Shown here: positions 25,369-37,398 of the stretch, one piece after another
How positions within the stretch are numbered: position 1 is the first letter of the stretch
Layout of the letters: each line of letters opens with the position of its first letter
Source of the DNA: Microvenator marinus
GTDB lineage: Bacteria > Myxococcota_A > Bradymonadia > Bradymonadales > Bradymonadaceae
DNA: 64,000 bases
Direction of reading: 5' to 3'
Assembly (NCBI RefSeq): GCF_007993755.1
Contig: NZ_CP042467.1
Coordinates: forward strand, 3,930,001-3,994,000
Notes under the pieces: model-generated
Seen by the model: the letters and a program-made list of their open reading frames with translations, nothing else
What the model was told of the DNA's origin: nothing
The model's database searches: none
Translations under genes and position numbers: made by a program

Positions 25369-28020
25369 ATGAAACCCTCCACCAACACCAACCCAGAACG
25401 CACCTCGATCATCGGGCGTGAGACCGAACTCACGCTGGTGGAGCAGCTCATCAAGGCCAACTCTCTGGTGACGATCATAGGACCGCCCGGTGTTGGCAAG
25501 ACGCGCCTCGTTTCCGAGCTCGCCCACGCTCGGCTCGGCCCCGCTGAAACAACCAAGGACCCGGAACTCGTTCTCGCCGGTGAGCTCGCGGTACTCGACG
25601 CCTCGGATCTGGATCACAACCAGCTCGCGGAACTCGTGGACAACGCACTGAACGCTAGGCCCACGCTCAAAATCATCACCACCGCTTCTCAACCTCTCGA
25701 ACTCGCCAGCGAATATGTCTTTGCGCTCAAACCTCTCTCTGCAGATGCGGCGGCAGAGCTGTTTGAGCAGCGCGCATCGGGTCTCAAGACCACCGCCCAT
25801 CTTCCAGAGCTCCTGGCCGAGCTCGACCACCTTCCCCGCGAAATAGAACTCGCCGCGTCCAAGACCGACCTCATGACGCCCGCCGAGATTCTGAAGTCGC
25901 TGGATCGCCGGTTTGAGGCACTCGAGTCGCGCCGCCGTGGCCAAGCCCCAGACATCCTCCGCTCCAGTATTCAACCCCTCGTTTCGGCACTAGACCCCGC
26001 GACCATGCACGTTCTTAGTCAGGTCACGGTCTTCGTGAACGGCTTTGACCTCGAGGCGGCCCACGCCGTTCTCCATTCCGAAAAGCGCACGCCACAAATA
26101 CTTTCTGAGCTCGTTCGGCGCTCGCTCTTGATCAAGGAAGTCGACACCATCGGTGAGTCACGATTCTACAGCCTGAAGTCGGTGCAGTACTACCTGAGCC
26201 AGACGCGCCCGATTCCGCCTGAGACGCGTGAAAACCACGCACATCATTATGCGGAGAGCAGCAAGCCGCTTCTCGGGTCGCTCAATCAGACCAACGGCTC
26301 ACGCCATGCCGCTCGTCTGATACTCGAACGAGGTAATCTCGAGGCCGCTTTTGACTACAGCTTTGATTCCCAGCCGGGACGCGCGGCACAGATCGCCGCG
26401 GCGCTCGACGCGATTTCGCGACTTGAACCCGAACGCTCGCTGCGCCGCCTCAACGCATGCCTTGCCAAGACCGAGATATCGCTGACTGCGCGCGCGGACA
26501 TCCTCGCCCGAATTGCAGATCACTATATCGATAGTTCGGATTTTGGCGCGGCAATGGATGCCCTGGAACGCGCCTGGCAACTAGACCCGCTCGATGAACA
26601 GAAGGCGTGGATCAAGCTCCGAATGGCCAATGCTCACAGGCTTCGCGGCGAGGTCATGGCCGCGATTGAGGCCCACGGGGTGGTGCGCGCGCTGGCCGAG
26701 TCCAATAAGCTCAAGCGTCTCAACTGGGCGCACGAAGCCAATGCGTGGGTGGATCTCGGTGATTTCGAGCAGGCTCGAAGCTGCCTGCGCGAACTCCAGT
26801 TCATTCCCGAGTCCGACGATCTGCGGCGTGAGTCCGAGATTCACCGAAGGCTCGTCTACGTGCATTTCTATCTCGGAAACCGGCAGGAACAACGGCGTCA
26901 CGCCGAGCTCGCCCTGAAGGCTGCTGAGGAGATCGGCGATCTGCGTCTCAAGGCGATCTGCCTGCAGGGTTTGGCAGATGCAGAGCTTTCCGCCAAGAAC
27001 TACGAGGCTGCTGTGCACGCCTACCGAGCCGCTCTCGAGACTCACAGAATCCTCGGTAACCGGACGTTTGAGGCCATGTTGCTAGGGAATCTAGCCGGCG
27101 CACTTCATCGTCTGGACGAGCGGCGCGAGGCGCGAAAACACTACCAGGAAAGCCTCGCGTTGCATCGTTCGGGCGGCACCAAGGCCTGGGAGAATGTGGT
27201 GCTCTTTGCGCTTGGCACGCTGGAATTCGAGGAAGAGAACCTCGGCGATGCAAGGGCGCACTTTACCGCTGCGCTTGCGCTGGCCACCGAACTTGGCATT
27301 GAGTCCGATGCCGCAGGATATCTGCTCTCGTTGAGTTGGGTGGACCTCATGGAGGGTCGTTTCGCCTCCGCGTCCAAGCATGCCGCCGAGGCCGCCGCGC
27401 GTTTCGAACGTCTAGGGACAAGCGATTTCGGCTGGAAGGTTGTCTCGTTGGCGACGGTCAGTGTGGCCGAGTATCTACGGGGGCTCCCGGCCAATTTGAA
27501 GGGTGTGATCGCTGAGATTGAAGGCCGCCCCGAAGACTCGCAGACCGTCATGGTCACGCTCCTCAACGAGTGGATGCATCAGCGCCCTGCGGTCTCAAAT
27601 CCATTCACAGTCTCGTCTTTGCACGCGCGCATGGTCTATCGCCTCGTGCAGAGATTGCCCACAACCCGGCCCGACACTACACCGCCTCCGCGTGATGCCG
27701 AGCTTGTTGTAGGGCCGGATTGCGAATGGTTCAGGTGTGCAGATGAAAGCGTGGATCTTCGCCGTCGAAAGTCCATCAAACTCATTCTCAAACATCTTGT
27801 GGAATTGCATGCTTCCAAGCCAGGCGTTGGAGCTGATGCCCACGCGCTATTCGATATCGGCTGGCCGGGCCAAGAGATCGAGCCTGAGGACGCCGCCCGC
27901 CGCGTCTACTGGGCCATCCGAACGCTTAGAAAGAATGGTCTCGATGAGTTGATTTTAACGTCAGATGATGGTTACCTAATCGACTCAAAGATTAGGATTG
28001 AAGTCGGCGACGAATGGTAA
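25369..28020 (+). CDS. STAND-type ATPase regulator with TPR repeats and C-terminal winged helix
   Basis: The 883-aa protein begins with an NTPase domain: Walker A GPPGVGKT (residues 38-45) and a sensor strand LKIITTASQP. A long alpha-helical array from about residue 340 to 690 has TPR-like pairs. The last 90 residues resemble the OmpR/SARP DNA-binding fold: SVDLRRRKSIKLILKHL, then a recognition-helix region with RRVYWAIRTLRKNG and a DGYLI wing. It probably activates transcription after binding a signal and ATP. The reversed order (DNA-binding domain at the end) differs from AfsR. The last seven bases overlap the next gene. Confidence 0.78.
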   Translation: MKPSTNTNPERTSIIGRETELTLVEQLIKANSLVTIIGPPGVGKTRLVSELAHARLGPAETTKDPELVLAGELAVLDASDLDHNQLAELVDNALNARPTLKIITTASQPLELASEYVFALKPLSADAAAELFEQRASGLKTTAHLPELLAELDHLPREIELAASKTDLMTPAEILKSLDRRFEALESRRRGQAPDILRSSIQPLVSALDPATMHVLSQVTVFVNGFDLEAAHAVLHSEKRTPQILSELVRRSLLIKEVDTIGESRFYSLKSVQYYLSQTRPIPPETRENHAHHYAESSKPLLGSLNQTNGSRHAARLILERGNLEAAFDYSFDSQPGRAAQIAAALDAISRLEPERSLRRLNACLAKTEISLTARADILARIADHYIDSSDFGAAMDALERAWQLDPLDEQKAWIKLRMANAHRLRGEVMAAIEAHGVVRALAESNKLKRLNWAHEANAWVDLGDFEQARSCLRELQFIPESDDLRRESEIHRRLVYVHFYLGNRQEQRRHAELALKAAEEIGDLRLKAICLQGLADAELSAKNYEAAVHAYRAALETHRILGNRTFEAMLLGNLAGALHRLDERREARKHYQESLALHRSGGTKAWENVVLFALGTLEFEEENLGDARAHFTAALALATELGIESDAAGYLLSLSWVDLMEGRFASASKHAAEAAARFERLGTSDFGWKVVSLATVSVAEYLRGLPANLKGVIAEIEGRPEDSQTVMVTLLNEWMHQRPAVSNPFTVSSLHARMVYRLVQRLPTTRPDTTPPPRDAELVVGPDCEWFRCADESVDLRRRKSIKLILKHLVELHASKPGVGADAHALFDIGWPGQEIEPEDAARRVYWAIRTLRKNGLDELILTSDDGYLIDSKIRIEVGDEW

Positions 28021-29145: not shown

Positions 29146-32100
29146 TTATCGCCGTCGAACTCGGAGCCCGATTCCGAGAACTAGAAGCATCAGAAGCGCG
29201 TGATCTGGACGAGCATCGGTAGACGCACAGGCGGGTCCTGAACCCTCGAGCTGGCCTTGAGCTTGAGGACCAATGTCCGGGCCGGCCATATCAGCGCCCA
29301 TATCGTCGATCGCCATGTCCGGCGTACCCATATCGGTTTCACCCATGTCGTCGCCCATGTCGGTCTCACCCATATCTGGGGTGCCCATATCGCCCATGTC
29401 TTCACCTGGCTCAACACACTCAGCGTTCGAGCAGACGAAGCCTTCGGCACAGTCCACGTCTGCTTCGCAAGAGCTAAGACATGCCGCACCTTCGGCGCTC
29501 ACGCCACACACATACGGTGCGCAGCTTGTAAGCGTGGTGGTGTCCTCGGTGCATGCGCCCGACCCGTCACAGATGCCGGCGCTCACAGAGGTTCCATCAG
29601 CTGAACAGAACGACTCGGAGCAAGTTGAACCAAACGGCAGGTCTTCAAAGACACAGCCTTGCGCCGGATCGCACGACGGAGCGGTACACTCGTTATCGTC
29701 GTCCTCACATACAACGGCATCGCCGCCGCATACGCCCGACTCACAGATATTGTTCTCGGTACACGCGTCTGCGTCATCGCATACGGTGCCGTCTGGCCTT
29801 GGTTGCGCCACGCAGGCGCCGCTCGTGCCATCACATACGCCGATCTCACAATCTGTATCCAGGTTCGAACAATCCACGTTCGACTCGCCCGAACACACAC
29901 CGTTACCGTCGCAGGTTCCGGCATCTACACAGACATCGCCACCACACGCCGTGCCAGACGCACTTGGGTTCGCCGGCACGCAAAGGTCTGCGGTCTCATC
30001 ACAAGCCACGCCTTCAAAACAGGTGGCCGCAGCATTCGAGCAATCGCGAGGCGCACCCACACAAGCTCCCGCGCCGTCGCACGCGTTGTTTACGGTGCAG
30101 AAGAGGCCGTCATCACAGGTAGTTCCAGCCGAAGCAGGAGCTGCCTGACAGCCAAGCACAGCGTCACACGAATCGACAGTACACTCGTTGCCGTCATCAC
30201 ACGTCACAGCCGAGCCACCACACACACCCGCCGTACACGAATCCGCCGAGGTACAGGCGTTTCCGTCATCACAGGCGAGCCCGTCCGCGGCAGGCACGCT
30301 CACGCAACCCAAAACAGGGTCACAGCTTTCTACCGTACAAGGATTGCCATCATCGCACGCAATGGCACTACCGCCACAAACGCCGCCGCCACACACATCA
30401 TTGTTCGTGCAGGCGTCACCGTCATCACACGACGTACCATTCGTCACATTGACGGCCTCACAGGCCCCCGTGGTCGCATTACATTGCCCAACGGTACACG
30501 CGGTATCGAGGTTCGAACAATCCACGGGCGCTGCGCCCTGACAGGTACCCGCGCCATCACACGTTCCAGCGGTCTGACAAACGGCCCCACCACAGGCATC
30601 ACCAGCCGGCGAAGGCGCCGGCGGATCACACTGGTCCGCCGCCTCGTTACATACGCCCGCCTCAAAACACTCACCAGGCGATCCTGAGCAATCGAGCGGC
30701 GTTCCACCACCACATGCACCCGCAGTACAAACCTCATTCTCGGTGCAGAAAAGCCCATCATCGCAAGGCGTATTGTCAGCCACTACTGCATTGATACAGC
30801 CCAACGTGGTGTCACATGAGTCAGTGGTGCATTGATCGCCATCATCGCAAGAGAGCGGCGAGTAGGCAGTCTGAGACACACTCGGATCACACACCTCGCA
30901 CGCATTGGTTGGGCTCACATCACCCGCAGCAACAAAGGCTCCATCAATGAAGCAGTCCTCAACTCCGTAATGGGCGAAGGCAGCTCCACCGCGTGTCGGA
31001 TCATTCGGGGACGGATAATCACGTGCCCCGATCAGCAGGTCGTCGATCGAATCGCCATTAAGGTCAAATCCACTATGAATGCTCAATCCATATCCTCCGT
31101 TCGACTGGTTGCCTTCCAATGTTTGAACACGGTCAAAGCTCATCCCGTTATATTGGTGAACAATCACGGCGCCTTCGTTGGTTTCAGGGTTGCTGAAGTT
31201 TGGTGCCGACACGATAAGGTCAGCGAAACCATCTCCGTTAATATCTCCACCGGCAATTTCCGTTCCGAAACGCGAGCCGGGAAGTCCGTCTACCACGATA
31301 GGAACGAGTTCCAGCCCTGTCCCTGTGCCTTTGACTACCAAAACTGCCCCTTGATTCGAATTCTGGCCAGGTGCGCCAAAACCAAAATCCAGATTCCCAT
31401 CATTGTCGATGTCTCCGAGCCTCACCGTCGCGACTCCCAGAGTAGCTGACGCCATACTGCCAAAGAAGGATTGTGTTGGCGCGGCTGAGAGCCCAGTTAA
31501 ACCCCCATCGTGAAGGTAGACTGCCCCTTGATTTGTGAACCCAGGCTGGTCGAAACTCGGTGCTCCCACCAGAAGATCATCACATGTGTTCACTCCAACA
31601 ACAGTTCCGCGGATGGGACCGCTGGTTAATGCCCCGCCAAAGTTAGAACCCGTTGGGCCATTGAGAATTTGAGGGGGGGTGAGGTAGGTTCCGTTGAGTC
31701 CATAGTAGACCCACACACGTCCGGAACTGGCATTGGTAAACGCGCTTCCGACCGCAATATCCCTAAACCCGTCGCAATTGTAGTCTCCGACTCTCACCCT
31801 AAATCCAAAAAATTCATTGGTTGCGGGCGATGGTGACTGAATCTCAGTAGGGGATTGTAATCCAACACCCGCCTGACCTCGAAAGATGTATACCGTTCCG
31901 GCATTGGCATTGCCTTGAACTGCCTTTAGCGACGAAACCGCAACGTCAGCGAAGCCATCTCCATCCACGTCCCCAAGAACCGCAATCAAATATCCAAGCT
32001 GAGCGAAAGCGATGTCGCTCTCGTAGCTCCATGCAGCTGTCTGACTTAGGCCAGTCGAGGTGCCATAGTACAGAATGATTCGACCTTCACGCGAATTGTC

Positions 32101-32931
32101 TTCACCGTTCGGTCCGTCATTGAAGTAGCGTGGTTGGCCCACTAACACATCAGTGAAGCCATCCCCGTTTACGTCCCCAAGCCCACGAACCATCGTGCCG
32201 AAGAAAGACGCGCCCTTGTCGGGATCTGGGTAGGTGCTCCACGAGGGCGAGGTGGCGACTGGGTCTATGTAGATTGGATATTTTGCGTTCTGGTCATTGT
32301 ACTCAATAAACACTCGCTCACCGACTCGCACATATTTCACATCTAGGGTTTGCCCAGTGGCATCCCAAGCCCCGAGACCCTTCCATGTGAAGACCCTTTC
32401 GGTGCCTCGCATCACTATAAGGTCGGATCCGTCGATGATATAGCTGTGATCGTTTGAAAGCCCGAACTGGATCGCTCCCCTCTCTGAGGGCGACTTTAGA
32501 GTCCAAGAAATTGAGACTCCGTCAGTATTGTTGGAGAAGTGCGAGTCCCAATGGCTCCCCGAAAGCGTAAACTTACGACCGTCTACCTTGCCGGAGACCC
32601 ACTTGTTTTGTTGTCCTACAACTTCTGACGGAGGGGCAGAATAGATCGTTTCCCCACCCACGTGCGTAAAGTGAAGACCTCCATCTGCAAGCACCTCGGC
32701 AGTATAGCCTAGCGCAAGGTTGGTTGCGCTAACTTTGCTGTCCAATATGTCCCAAGATTCAAACGGTTTGACGTCTCCAACGCGTGAGATTGACAGTCCC
32801 TCAATGGCGCCCTCCGATCCTGATTTCAATAAGGCGTGTTGATCAGTCTCCTGAGTTGCCTTGGTGTCGTGATCACAACCACTCAATACAAACATGGCCG
32901 CGAAGACGTGCAGAAACTTTACTTTATGCAT
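29146..32931 (-). CDS. Giant FG-GAP/Cys-repeat surface lipoprotein with MYXO-CTERM-like tail
   Basis: The 1261-aa protein starts with a lipoprotein signal (lipobox LSGC, Cys18). Residues about 235-660 hold FG-GAP/integrin-like repeats (GDVNGDGFTDVLVG, GDINGDGFADLIVS and others), which build a beta-propeller. Residues about 670-1180 are Cys-rich repeats (CDDGNPCTVESCDPVLGC type). A DMG-rich linker follows, and the C-terminus has a hydrophobic helix ending in RVRRR, like MYXO-CTERM sorting tails. It is probably exposed at the cell surface. The start ATG 32931 has GGAAGG upstream. A terminator follows the gene. Confidence 0.85.
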   Translation of the reverse strand: MHKVKFLHVFAAMFVLSGCDHDTKATQETDQHALLKSGSEGAIEGLSISRVGDVKPFESWDILDSKVSATNLALGYTAEVLADGGLHFTHVGGETIYSAPPSEVVGQQNKWVSGKVDGRKFTLSGSHWDSHFSNNTDGVSISWTLKSPSERGAIQFGLSNDHSYIIDGSDLIVMRGTERVFTWKGLGAWDATGQTLDVKYVRVGERVFIEYNDQNAKYPIYIDPVATSPSWSTYPDPDKGASFFGTMVRGLGDVNGDGFTDVLVGQPRYFNDGPNGEDNSREGRIILYYGTSTGLSQTAAWSYESDIAFAQLGYLIAVLGDVDGDGFADVAVSSLKAVQGNANAGTVYIFRGQAGVGLQSPTEIQSPSPATNEFFGFRVRVGDYNCDGFRDIAVGSAFTNASSGRVWVYYGLNGTYLTPPQILNGPTGSNFGGALTSGPIRGTVVGVNTCDDLLVGAPSFDQPGFTNQGAVYLHDGGLTGLSAAPTQSFFGSMASATLGVATVRLGDIDNDGNLDFGFGAPGQNSNQGAVLVVKGTGTGLELVPIVVDGLPGSRFGTEIAGGDINGDGFADLIVSAPNFSNPETNEGAVIVHQYNGMSFDRVQTLEGNQSNGGYGLSIHSGFDLNGDSIDDLLIGARDYPSPNDPTRGGAAFAHYGVEDCFIDGAFVAAGDVSPTNACEVCDPSVSQTAYSPLSCDDGDQCTTDSCDTTLGCINAVVADNTPCDDGLFCTENEVCTAGACGGGTPLDCSGSPGECFEAGVCNEAADQCDPPAPSPAGDACGGAVCQTAGTCDGAGTCQGAAPVDCSNLDTACTVGQCNATTGACEAVNVTNGTSCDDGDACTNNDVCGGGVCGGSAIACDDGNPCTVESCDPVLGCVSVPAADGLACDDGNACTSADSCTAGVCGGSAVTCDDGNECTVDSCDAVLGCQAAPASAGTTCDDGLFCTVNNACDGAGACVGAPRDCSNAAATCFEGVACDETADLCVPANPSASGTACGGDVCVDAGTCDGNGVCSGESNVDCSNLDTDCEIGVCDGTSGACVAQPRPDGTVCDDADACTENNICESGVCGGDAVVCEDDDNECTAPSCDPAQGCVFEDLPFGSTCSESFCSADGTSVSAGICDGSGACTEDTTTLTSCAPYVCGVSAEGAACLSSCEADVDCAEGFVCSNAECVEPGEDMGDMGTPDMGETDMGDDMGETDMGTPDMAIDDMGADMAGPDIGPQAQGQLEGSGPACASTDARPDHALLMLLVLGIGLRVRRR

Positions 32932-32987
32932 TGATATACCTTCCAACTTACAAAATTTACCAACCTACCCTATTACCTATCCAATCT
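32932..32987. promoter_or_regulatory. Divergent 56-base promoter region between surface protein and RiPP operon
   Basis: This short AT-rich stretch must contain the start signals for both the surface protein (leftward) and the RiPP operon (rightward). It holds several TACC steps, but no convincing hexamer pair is visible. Confidence 0.35.
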
Positions 32988-34316
32988 ATGTCAAAGAGTT
33001 TGAAAATGGTTCGTGTTTTTCTGGTCCTAGGGCAAGACCCTCCGAAGCATCGTGCACTCAACCAACTTGCGTGGCAACGGTTAAAGGGCGGCTGGCTGGG
33101 TGCTGATGGCCCATGCCCCTGGGACATCTCGGAATCTCGAGATTCTATCTTAATATACAATCAAGCGCCATCAAACTCGACCATGCTCTACACACGAGGT
33201 CCTAACACATCCTTTGTCACTAATTATCCTCCATTCTTGAGGGTCGTCGGTCGGGATATACCGAATCGCCGCTTCCTAGATCGTTGGATTGAAGGCACCG
33301 AAGTTCTGGCTCGAGGCATCCAACAGGACTTCTTCAAGGATGTGTTTCGGGTCCCCTTTGGTCACACTCTGAGACTCTCCGACCGCGGTGCCAGGGTCGT
33401 TGAATGTGTGCACTATCCGCAAGAGCAATGGGTGTTCGAAGATGCTCTTACCAGACTAAAGGTCCTCCTTTATAGGAGTGTGTTGGACGGGGTTGAGCGG
33501 GACTCCAAACACGCTTTGGCTTTGAGTTCCGGATTAGACTCAACACTCTTAGGAGCAATCTTGCGTGATTGTGCGCCTAAGCTCCACGCATTTACCATGG
33601 AATCACGTGTTCCAGGTGCCGACGAACGGCACTTCACCCAAGAGAGTGCCAACCTCCTCGGTCTACCACTTCTTGGGTTCGACATCGACCAATGCCCAGT
33701 ATTGGAGACCTCCGCAACGATGGACCGGTTTTGGGGACCCCAAGCTCATCCGGGCGAGGGACACGAAACAGAGTTTTTCCAATTTGTTGCCGACCGCGGA
33801 TTCAAAACGATTTGGACTGGTGTTGCCGCTGACCAACTCTTCCATGTCGACCCTTCGGTCGTCATACGGGAAACCATTACGCGTCCGGGATGGAGTGCTT
33901 CGGAACTCTTGAACCCCGGTCGAGGCTGGAGGGGAATGCTTAATCGTGAAAACCCCAGGATTCCCTTTAATAGTGTGGCTTGGGATCTCGCTGTTCGTCA
34001 TCAGATGCGAGTGCAGGAACGAACCGGGGTGACGCTTATTCAGCCATTCATGGAGCCAGATTTCGTCAACTTCGTACTTGGACTTCCGAATCTCTTCCTC
34101 GCGTCACCGAGTTGTGATAAACTCATCCTAAGAGAAGTGGGTTCCAGATTGATCCCACAGTTCAACAACTTTCGTCGGAAGCACACCGATTTTGGACCTT
34201 CTGTTCAGTTTCGTTTGAATTATGAAAGAGCGACACGCTCCAAGACGTTTTCCCCCAAAGAGTGGCGTCGAACCGCCGCCGAGCGATGGCTGGGTTTGTT
34301 TTATGGAAAAAGATAA
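32988..34316 (+). CDS. Asparagine-synthetase-like lasso peptide cyclase (protein C)
   Basis: The 442-aa protein has the Asn-synthase plan: a degenerate N-terminal glutaminase-like domain and an ATP-pyrophosphatase domain with PP-loop LSSGLDS (residues 179-185). It lacks a Cys at position 2, so it cannot use glutamine, as is usual in lasso cyclases, which adenylate an Asp/Glu side chain and close a macrolactam with the core N-terminus. A C-terminal LIQPFMEPDFV matches the family. The start could be ATG 32988 or ATG 33006. It is first in the RiPP operon and the precursor follows within 10 bases. Confidence 0.85.
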   Translation: MSKSLKMVRVFLVLGQDPPKHRALNQLAWQRLKGGWLGADGPCPWDISESRDSILIYNQAPSNSTMLYTRGPNTSFVTNYPPFLRVVGRDIPNRRFLDRWIEGTEVLARGIQQDFFKDVFRVPFGHTLRLSDRGARVVECVHYPQEQWVFEDALTRLKVLLYRSVLDGVERDSKHALALSSGLDSTLLGAILRDCAPKLHAFTMESRVPGADERHFTQESANLLGLPLLGFDIDQCPVLETSATMDRFWGPQAHPGEGHETEFFQFVADRGFKTIWTGVAADQLFHVDPSVVIRETITRPGWSASELLNPGRGWRGMLNRENPRIPFNSVAWDLAVRHQMRVQERTGVTLIQPFMEPDFVNFVLGLPNLFLASPSCDKLILREVGSRLIPQFNNFRRKHTDFGPSVQFRLNYERATRSKTFSPKEWRRTAAERWLGLFYGKR

Positions 34317-34326
34317 GGAAATCTCA

Positions 34327-34491
34327 ATGGAAACGGATACTCGCCCGATTGATCCTCCGAGGTTGATTGAGTTGGGTTCAGTGCGTGAACTCATCAGAGG
34401 CAGTGGCTCGGGAGGTTTGGATGTTTCGACAAACTGTACCACCCCTGGTGAGGACCAAGTCGATCCACCCCCTCCGACTTGCTCACCTTGA
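34327..34491 (+). CDS. Lasso-type RiPP precursor peptide
   Basis: The 54-aa peptide starts at ATG 34327, with AAGGA 8 bases upstream. The leader holds PxLxxxG (PRLIELG), the lasso leader signature, but Ile is found where the conserved Tyr and the penultimate Thr usually lie (IDPP; ELIRG). Cleavage after Arg24 would leave a 30-residue core beginning GSGSGGLD, with Gly1 and Asp8 placed for an eight-residue macrolactam. The tail has Cys13 and Cys28, which could form a disulfide, a PPPP run and a final Ser-Pro. The cleavage site and ring are predictions by analogy. Its stop codon overlaps the B1 frame. Confidence 0.8.
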   Translation: METDTRPIDPPRLIELGSVRELIRGSGSGGLDVSTNCTTPGEDQVDPPPPTCSP

Positions 34492-34736
34492 AGCTCGTGC
34501 TTTCCAAACACACGGTCATTGAGTGGTTCGATGAACGAGTCGTCTTGTTGAATGCGCAGAATGGCAGAGTTTTTGAACTAAACCCAACTGCGGCATTGAT
34601 GTGGGATAAGCTTCAGACAAATCCTAGCCTTGCCGCGGAGTTTTTGGTCAAGAACGGGTACTCGCACGACGAAGCCGTTGGTCTGATCGGAGAGTTCGTA
34701 GACCATCTTTTAGATGCTGGGCTTGTCGAGAAATGA
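34479..34736 (+). CDS. PqqD-like leader-recognition protein (lasso protein B1)
   Basis: The 85-aa protein fits the RiPP recognition element fold: strands VLLNAQNGRVFELN, then helices with AALMWDKL and a C-terminal LIGEFVDHLLDAGLVE. It would bind the leader peptide and present it to the peptidase. The start is TTG 34479 or TTG 34488, both overlapping the precursor end. It overlaps the kinase gene by four bases (ATGA). Confidence 0.85.
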   Translation: MLTLKLVLSKHTVIEWFDERVVLLNAQNGRVFELNPTAALMWDKLQTNPSLAAEFLVKNGYSHDEAVGLIGEFVDHLLDAGLVEK

Positions 34737-35578
34737 CACGTTACGCAACATGGGGTCGAATAGTCCATGGCCCTCCTGAATTGCATTGGCCAGTTGTGCG
34801 TGACTCAGAAACCTCCATGCTCCAAGAGTGTAGAATCTCTGAGAGTTCGGGGCTCCGGTCTTGTCTATGGAAAACCATACACCTGGCCGAAGATATCGGC
34901 TCTAACCACACGCTGACAGTGAAACAAAGGGGCGATGCCCTTTTTTTTGAATGGCGTTCTCTTCGCGTCCTTTGGGAAGATTCGACCATCTACTTCGACG
35001 GCCCAGCTATCGAGCCATTCGTCGATCGAGTCGTTTTTCCCGTCATTGAGTCTTTGAACCCCGACTCTGTTACACTTCACGGGGCCGCGATAGTTAGCAA
35101 GAAAGCCATGTTGCTTCTGGGCCAGTCTGGGGTTGGGAAGTCAACGATTACCCGCGAGCTTTCCGGTCGTGGATGGCGATTTTGGGCTGACGATGTTGTC
35201 GCAATCAATCACACATTACTCAAACCTAGCGCGTCTTCCAGTCGGATGCGTGGAGCGACAACTCTGAATGAAGACTTTCCGGGTTCCGGTAAATTAAGGC
35301 TGATGGAGGCACCGAACTTCTCAGCGACTCCTTTATCCTCGATTGTTATCCTGAAACGCGGCGATCCTTTGAAATTGGAAAAGGTAGAGAGCGTGATCCC
35401 CCTAATGCCGTACCTCTACGATTTGGACCCCGGAACCCCCGAACTTCGAAAGCGTCGATTTCAAAACTTGGCAAATCTTGCTCGGACCACTCCCATTTTT
35501 GAAATGACCTTTCCTCCCAACGAACAGGGAGGTCCCAGTCTGAAGCAACTTGATCTTATCGAGAGCCTACTTTCGTGA
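34733..35578 (+). CDS. HPr-kinase-like protein of the RiPP operon
   Basis: The 281-aa protein has the P-loop GQSGVGKST (residues 130-138) after a LHGAAIV strand, and a following WADDVVAIN, the layout of HPr kinase/phosphatase C-terminal domains. Relatives in lasso clusters (paeninodin, pseudomycoidin) phosphorylate the terminal Ser of the precursor. Here Ser is the penultimate residue, so it is a candidate acceptor. No HPr or PTS gene is nearby, which argues against a PTS role. Its stop overlaps the B2 start. Confidence 0.8.
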   Translation: MTRYATWGRIVHGPPELHWPVVRDSETSMLQECRISESSGLRSCLWKTIHLAEDIGSNHTLTVKQRGDALFFEWRSLRVLWEDSTIYFDGPAIEPFVDRVVFPVIESLNPDSVTLHGAAIVSKKAMLLLGQSGVGKSTITRELSGRGWRFWADDVVAINHTLLKPSASSSRMRGATTLNEDFPGSGKLRLMEAPNFSATPLSSIVILKRGDPLKLEKVESVIPLMPYLYDLDPGTPELRKRRFQNLANLARTTPIFEMTFPPNEQGGPSLKQLDLIESLLS

Positions 35579-35964
35579 GTCAAGCGATTAAAATGCAGGT
35601 AGGAGTTGGTCTCTTGTTGGTCAGCGCCACCGTCCTCAATCGTTACGGCCCAGGAGAGCTTCTTCGATTAGAGCCAGCCGATATCGGCACGGGACGACTC
35701 GATGCAGAGAGTCTGGCTAAGGTTGTGAGTAGGGTCGCTGATTCAATCAAAGTTCTAAACTGCCTTCCTCGTGCCATCGTGCTCCGAGAAATTCTGCGAC
35801 AGAATGGAGTTGTTGCTGAAGTGGTCATAAGCGCAACCTACCTCCAAACTTTCCAAGGCCATGCTTGGGTCCGAACGCCCCACGGCAACTTTTTCAATGA
35901 AGAAGGACTACAACCATGGATCAAACTCCCCCTTTGCAATGAGGCCGACACTCATGAAGCATAG
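35575..35964 (+). CDS. Transglutaminase-like leader peptidase (lasso protein B2)
   Basis: The 129-aa protein shows the B2 pattern: catalytic Cys63 in NCLPRAIVL and His96 in GHAWV. The third catalytic residue after the His is not obvious (HGNFF). It would cut the leader from the precursor, with B1 presenting the substrate. Start GTG 35575 overlaps the stop of the kinase gene; length is typical for split B2 proteins. Confidence 0.85.
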   Translation: MSQAIKMQVGVGLLLVSATVLNRYGPGELLRLEPADIGTGRLDAESLAKVVSRVADSIKVLNCLPRAIVLREILRQNGVVAEVVISATYLQTFQGHAWVRTPHGNFFNEEGLQPWIKLPLCNEADTHEA

Positions 35965-36829
35965 CGAATTGTCGGAATCGATGCGTTGGCAAGCGTGGAG
36001 AATGGCTCAACTCCACGTTCTCCAGGCCTTGAAAGCAGGACCGGCCGATTGGCTTCATCTCAAGGGGTTGGGACTCGCTCAACAGGTGTACCCAAATCCA
36101 TTCGAACGCAAATCAGGAGATGTAGATATACTTGTGGATAGGCGTGAGTTGCCGAATTGGATTCAATGGCTTGAAAGGAACGGCTTTGAAAACCAGAGCC
36201 CGTCCACGCGCCCACTCACCATGAATCAGGTACTCTTTGTGCATCGCGCTACTGGGGTTCCATTAGATTTGCACTGGAGGATCGCCTATCCGCACCTACC
36301 AGCCCCCGAGTTTCCGGAGCTTTGGAGGACGCGCACGGAGATCGAGATCAACGGCACCCCGGTCAATGTCCTGAATGCGGGCTGGGGAGGTTTTCACCTC
36401 GTCGTGCATTCGCATCAACATCTATTTGAGCCACGTATTCTCAGAGATCTGCAGCACTGGATCACTCACTTCGATAATGAGCAAGAGATCCTAGAACTCG
36501 CTGCTGCTATGGGATGGAGCCGCGTTGCCAACACTTGTTTTGAAATCATTCGGCTAATCGATGGGAGACCATCTCTTGGGGGCCAGCTCCCAACATCCAG
36601 CTCGCTTGAGCGAGCACTGGCCGAGGTGATCCTTGAAGAATGGGAATCTGGGCAGGTCTTTCAAGATCTCTCCACCCAATCAGGCATCTACCAAATTCTT
36701 TCTGTACTCCTTCTCGACCACAACCCGCTACGACGCACACTGCGCTATAGCCTCGTTGGGTCGCACCGCGTGGGCACCACCATCGATCGCCTCCGCGTGG
36801 CACTTGGTAGAGACCCATGGGAGGTTTGA
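35954..36829 (+). CDS. Nucleotidyltransferase-family protein of the RiPP operon
   Basis: The 291-aa protein matches the NTP_transf_5-like family found in lasso and related RiPP clusters: LHLKGLGLAQQVY (residues 34-46), GDVDILVD (residues 55-62) with the metal-binding Asp pair, and LDLHWRI. It may modify the phosphorylated peptide, as proposed for the pseudomycoidin homologue. The start ATG 35954 overlaps the end of B2 and has GAGG 9 bases upstream. It is the last gene of the operon; no ABC exporter follows. Confidence 0.82.
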   Translation: MKHSELSESMRWQAWRMAQLHVLQALKAGPADWLHLKGLGLAQQVYPNPFERKSGDVDILVDRRELPNWIQWLERNGFENQSPSTRPLTMNQVLFVHRATGVPLDLHWRIAYPHLPAPEFPELWRTRTEIEINGTPVNVLNAGWGGFHLVVHSHQHLFEPRILRDLQHWITHFDNEQEILELAAAMGWSRVANTCFEIIRLIDGRPSLGGQLPTSSSLERALAEVILEEWESGQVFQDLSTQSGIYQILSVLLLDHNPLRRTLRYSLVGSHRVGTTIDRLRVALGRDPWEV

Positions 36830-37026: not shown

Positions 37027-37398
37027 ATGCCTACGATTAATCAGCTCGTCCGCAAGTCGCGGGTAAAAGCGAAAGAAAAGACTGACGCTCCAGCGTTGAA
37101 AAACTGCCCACAGCGTCGTGGTGTTTGCACTCGCGTGTACACAACCACTCCTAAGAAGCCGAACTCCGCGCTTCGTAAGGTGGCTCGTGTTCGCCTGACC
37201 AACGGAATGGAGGTGACAAGCTACATTCCAGGTGAGGGGCATAACCTCCAGGAACACAGTGTGGTTCTCATTCGTGGTGGTCGTGTTAAAGACCTTCCAG
37301 GTGTGCGCTACCACATCATTCGCGGAACCCACGATGCGATCGGTGTCGCTAAGCGTCGCCAAGGTCGAAGCAAGTACGGCGCTAAGCGTCCCAAATAA
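37027..37398 (+). CDS. rpsL: 30S ribosomal protein S12
   Basis: The 123-aa protein is S12, part of the decoding centre of the small subunit. Conserved features are the start [12 protein letters not shown], the Cys-containing [27 protein letters not shown], the [11 protein letters not shown] loop, and the basic end [10 protein letters not shown]. In the TTPKKPNS segment the wild-type Lys associated with streptomycin sensitivity is present. It is the first gene of the str operon. Confidence 0.99.

Follow-up and report, generated by a model that had tools for sequence, protein, structure and literature searches.

What product does a six-gene operon at the edge of the ribosomal operon of Microvenator marinus encode, and is it a recent arrival or an old resident? 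M. marinus, now named Allomicrovenator marinus, is a predatory marine bacterium. The genome of strain V1718 comprises 5,847,748 bp (PMC11509652) and is here a single contig, of which we analyzed one 64-kb stretch, referred to below as the window. The operon lies at positions 32988–36829 of the window on the plus strand, with genes in the order C, A, B1, K, B2, N; a gap of 10 nt separates C from A, and the remaining coding regions overlap. Every gene except A is supported by Pfam or NCBIfam models, A having a near-threshold match to a leader model. The locus contains an Asn-synthetase-like cyclase with an intact ATP motif, both B1 and B2, and a precursor with Gly1 and Asp8, as is characteristic of lasso peptide clusters. 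The initial annotation had described six genes in this order, overlapping or a few bases apart, as a lasso-type RiPP operon with a kinase and a nucleotidyltransferase in a Bradymonadales host; the reading frames and domain matches agree with the layout, gene content and order with the assignment, and the host is indeed M. marinus V1718. Rfam and tRNA scans of the 64-kb window returned no matches.

Table. Genes of the lasso operon and its borders in the window
Feature	Position	Strand	Support
C, lasso cyclase	32988..34316	+	442 aa; PF00733 E=4e-14
A, precursor	34327..34491	+	54 aa; NF033521 E=0.0023, motif, AAGGAA site
B1, PqqD-like leader-binding (RRE) protein	about 34488..34736	+	PF05402 (PqqD) E=1e-7; NCBIfam lasso PqqD models
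K, HPr-kinase-like precursor kinase	34733..35578	+	PF07475 (Hpr_kinase_C) E=8e-8
B2, leader peptidase	35575..35964	+	PF13471 (Transglut_core3) E=6e-11; NF033537 (lasso_biosyn_B2) E=1.6e-7
N, NTP_transf_5 nucleotidyltransferase-like tailoring enzyme	35939 (or 35861)..36829	+	PF14907 E=7.5e-28
FG-GAP repeat surface protein, divergent; cluster border, outside pathway	29146..32946	-	PF01839
rpsL, first gene of ribosomal operon; cluster border	37027..37398	+	

A lasso cluster named mmv, without the exporter gene D, is listed for strain V1718 beside the bsf cluster by Duan et al. 2023 (PMC10368454). Since the only B2 match and the only HPr-type kinase match of the M. marinus genome both fall at the window locus, we infer that this locus is mmv. 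The cluster is thus already in the literature, and what is new here is the detail of the Microvenator precursor and of its form of the kinase. The bsf cluster, from Bradymonas sediminis, is the only one of its group studied at the bench: BsfK phosphorylates Ser3 of the precursor BsfA, BsfB1 has a dual role and raises both phosphorylation and cleavage, BsfB2 cleaves after Ile(-2)-Arg(-1), and the cluster was silent in its own host and in five heterologous hosts, with the mature lasso peptide never detected (PMC10368454). The view in the initial annotation that known lasso clusters with kinase and nucleotidyltransferase genes come from Firmicutes is therefore wrong, as bsf and the Sphingobium kinase SyanK are both published and mmv itself is named (PMC10368454). 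In our genome set, G008 encodes BsfA, BsfB1, BsfK and BsfB2 at 100% identity at an rpsL-linked site, in the order FG-GAP (divergent), C, A, D, B1, K, B2, N, rpsL, and the window has the same order minus D. With bsf-type clusters mmv further shares an Ile(-2) leader, a lasso kinase and a location beside ribosomal genes. Taken together, mmv is very probably the lasso cluster of V1718 and an ortholog of bsf by place and content from which the exporter gene is absent.

The precursor MmvA consists of a leader, METDTRPIDPPRLIELGSVRELIR, that ends in ELIR and thus carries Ile(-2), and a predicted core, GSGSGGLDVSTNCTTPGEDQVDPPPPTCSP. The 30-aa core reads GSGSGGLD-VSTNCTTPGEDQVDPPPPTCSP (GSGSGGLD-VSTNC...TCSP), in which Gly1 and Asp8 fit an eight-residue ring, Cys13 and Cys28 both lie in the tail past the ring residue Asp8, and the C-terminal residue is Pro. 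Against the lasso leader model MmvA scores 17.9 bits, with a cut-off of 19, and its leader motif I(-17)xxP(-14)xL(-12) has Ile in place of the Tyr of YxxPxL; phmmer gives a weak link to Lujinxingia precursors. The gene has its own ribosome-binding site, and the pattern of a leader, Ile/Thr/Val(-2), Gly1 and Asp/Glu8 occurs 0.05 times per shuffled 64 kb, which, with the real match falling exactly between C and B1, argues that the motif is not a chance occurrence; the window holds one further, unrelated match to the pattern, on the minus strand at 27582. Core position 3 is Gly, flanked by Ser2 and Ser4, and the Ser/Thr3 of bsf-type precursors is absent. This G1-S2-G3-S4 reading is at odds with the main text of PMC10368454, in which Ser3 is given as conserved in all precursors but LvtA. 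Most precursors of the family do have Ser/Thr3 (B. sediminis GTSG, P. caeni GSSG, Lujinxingia GFSG or GVTG, G082 and G112 GVTG; the names P. caeni and Lujinxingia are putative and drawn in part from precursor features), and besides MmvA it is missing from G087 (GQPG) and G043 (GAAS).

In the family alignments, all four enzymes C, K, B2 and N keep their catalytic residues. Specifically, C keeps the ATP motif SSGLDS, and the structure predicted for it aligns over about 420 columns with both beta-lactam synthetase (1jgt) and carbapenam synthetase (1q19), at E about 1e-14, and also matches asparagine synthetases; it is the shortest cyclase in the set compared. K carries every motif residue listed for BsfK (H116, G130, G133, G135, K136, S137, D153, D154), and its predicted fold matches HprK/P (HPr kinase) and PEPCK (PEP carboxykinase). 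The AlphaFold models of C and K reach mean pLDDT values of 70 and 77, a moderate confidence, with low confidence at K residues 163–197, the region of a missing loop described below. In B2, whose NF033537 score is just below the cut-off, Cys63 and His96 are invariant in the family, as are DxD and HxHxH in N. Two starts are ambiguous: B1 could begin at TTG 34479, TTG 34488 or GTG 34497, and N has an alternative, longer start at 35861.

From these assignments we infer a pathway by analogy, in which B1 would bind the MmvA leader and hand the precursor to K, which would phosphorylate a Ser or Thr of the core, most likely Ser4 or Ser2 given that Ser3 is absent. B1 and B2 would then cleave after Ile(-2)-Arg(-1), and C would activate Asp8 with ATP and link it to Gly1, forming an eight-residue ring around the tail. 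N may decorate the phosphorylated residue with a nucleotidyl or sugar group, and a Cys13–Cys28 disulfide could form within the tail (class IV). The product predicted from the sequences is likely a lasso peptide that carries a phosphate and a modification by N, and it may also have a disulfide in the tail. Several points speak against this pathway: the bsf lasso has gone undetected, Tyr(-17) is replaced by Ile and Ser3 by Gly, no exporter is present, and the B1-K-B2 proteins of mmv form the longest branch in the family, which would be compatible with a drift in function.

The initial annotation had noted that no exporter lies in the operon, and we likewise find no exporter gene among the six. 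The M. marinus genome also has no ortholog of BsfD at E<1e-90, the best match, 31% identical, being a generic ABC protein, and no second lasso cluster was found in it. Across the family loci (L053–L068), several of them from draft genomes, D and N are nearly complementary: seven genomes have N without D (G000, G043, G048, G019, G132, G082, G112), seven have D without N (G014, G024, G034, G087, G184, G073, G063), two have both (G008, G146) and none has neither. Few independent events underlie this pattern, and we therefore claim no significance for it.

The closest counterpart of the mmv form is found in G043, which groups with Microvenator as its sister in the FG-GAP tree, at 99% support, and falls near it in the ribosomal tree. 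G043 has in common with mmv the absence of D, the absence of Ser/Thr3, the presence of Ser4 and two tail cysteines, and the kinases of both lack some 20–30 residues after the ADD motif that are present in the other nine aligned kinases. It is a reasonable prediction from these sequences that a shift of the phosphorylation site is common to Microvenator and G043. One could go further and regard the two as having a derived pathway for a class IV peptide with kinase and N modifications and a tail disulfide, in which a loop-less kinase acts on Ser4 (or Ser2) and N provides the protection otherwise due to the lost exporter; we consider this fuller scenario unlikely. In the single draft genome G043 (L056:6608-8260, G043:C77, minus strand), no stop codon separates the cyclase from the precursor, so that one open frame encodes a 550-aa fusion of the two, and an AAGGTGG site ahead of an internal ATG may permit separate translation of the precursor.

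The initial annotation had also taken the lower GC of the cluster as a sign of horizontal transfer, and a recent acquisition from Firmicutes of a paeninodin/pseudomycoidin-type cluster would account both for the identical set of tailoring genes and for a GC content of 51.6% against 57.4% in the adjacent ribosomal genes. The distribution of the cluster points the other way. Of 21 family genomes, 17 match a kinase profile, among them every one of the 12 high-quality genomes, and in 14 of these 17 rpsL was retrieved together with the lasso genes on one stretch (in inverted orientation in G063); at eight of eight lasso/kinase loci checked outside the family, some of them on short contigs, rpsL is not nearby. 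The FG-GAP gene borders the cluster in the window and in most family genomes. The B1-K-B2 tree and the ribosomal tree share their well-supported shallow groups, with weak deep nodes and G019 placed differently, and the best matches of K in a sample of the phylum fall within the same family. MmvA, moreover, lacks the C-terminal Ser that is the hallmark of the paeninodin type, ending instead in TCSP, and has Ile(-2) rather than Thr(-2). A limited cross-phylum scan gave no homolog of MmvC or MmvK from Firmicutes that is closer than those in Bradymonadales, and a cyclase scan of genome contigs, from which the own genome was perhaps excluded and in which others may be too divergent, found no relatives. 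Nor does GC support transfer, as the cluster lies below its neighboring ribosomal genes in some family genomes and above them in others. A Firmicute origin is thus extremely improbable, and recent horizontal transfer in general was rejected on the conserved location and the presence across the family. Between the window and G008 the ribosomal flanks are 70% identical and B1-K-B2 only 25% (over trimmed columns), which, combined with the family-wide kinase, the rpsL linkage, the shallow agreement of the trees and the two-way GC shifts, leads us to argue for a cluster that is long resident and fast diverging.

Two further explanations concern the product. The kinase and N might modify a linear peptide, as in lpp-type RiPPs, and indeed an HprK-like kinase, an RRE and an NTP transferase are known from RiPP clusters without lasso enzymes, and no mature bsf lasso has been observed (PMC10368454). 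Given that mmv encodes both a B2 peptidase and a cyclase of the Asn-synthetase type, their motifs intact, where lpp clusters have a signal-peptidase-type enzyme instead, and that Gly1 and Asp8 are correctly spaced in MmvA, a non-lasso phosphopeptide seems very improbable. Alternatively the cluster could be decaying, its exporter lost, its cyclase shortened and its product no longer made, a reading to which the missing D, the short C and the fastest-evolving B1-K-B2 of the family would lend themselves. All frames are open, however, the catalytic residues are intact and the gene overlaps are kept, and six other family genomes likewise have the kinase and N but no D ortholog, which makes decay distinctly improbable. 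A functional lasso cluster remains our preferred reading.

Some loci depart from the common plan. In G048 (L055) the cluster reads C-B1-K-B2-N, with no recognizable precursor found between C and B1. G024 and G014 (L057, L058), which belong to one genus with G034 (L059), have near-identical C and A; C and A of G034 are very different from these and its K and B2 are close, suggesting a possible exchange of the C-A module. The FG-GAP protein at the border of mmv has slime-mold-type Cys repeats and a MYXO-CTERM-like tail. Outside the cluster, an Asn_synthase-like match with an internal TAA was seen at L002 (G000:C1:3874874-3875410).

A kinase-bearing lasso pathway thus appears as a core, long-retained trait of a predatory family, usually beside the ribosomal operon, with a peptide and enzymes that diverge quickly. 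Long retention at a usually fixed site despite this divergence suggests that the pathway serves a steadily selected function, which may lie in predation or competition. What remains of interest is how peptide and kinase are changed in Microvenator and G043; the Microvenator form offers a natural test of what determines the residue choice of the kinase.

Compared with bsf of B. sediminis FA350, mmv has the same gene set, the order C-A-(D)-B1-K-B2-N and the FG-GAP and ribosomal flanks, and the two precursors share Ile(-2), Gly1 and Asp8. The exporter gene D is present in bsf and not in mmv, the mmv cyclase has a shorter N-terminal domain (442 aa in all, vs 659 aa for BsfC), and MmvA differs from the bsf precursor in lacking Ser3, in having two tail Cys and in the change of Tyr(-17) to Ile. 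An HPr-like kinase is also found in the lasso clusters of paeninodin (Paenibacillus dendritiformis) and pseudomycoidin (Bacillus pseudomycoides), and the nucleotidyltransferase is common to the pseudomycoidin cluster and mmv; those kinases target a C-terminal Ser in precursors with Thr(-2), whereas MmvA has a C-terminal Pro and Ile(-2). The recently described lpp-type RiPPs share the kinase, RRE and NTP transferase. Like the class IV lasso peptides LP2006, pandonodin and the felipeptins, MmvA has two tail cysteines, its disulfide being putative, and its core of 30 aa is comparable in size to the 33 aa of pandonodin; for class IV clusters no kinase is reported in a review (PMC9266682), whereas mmv has K.
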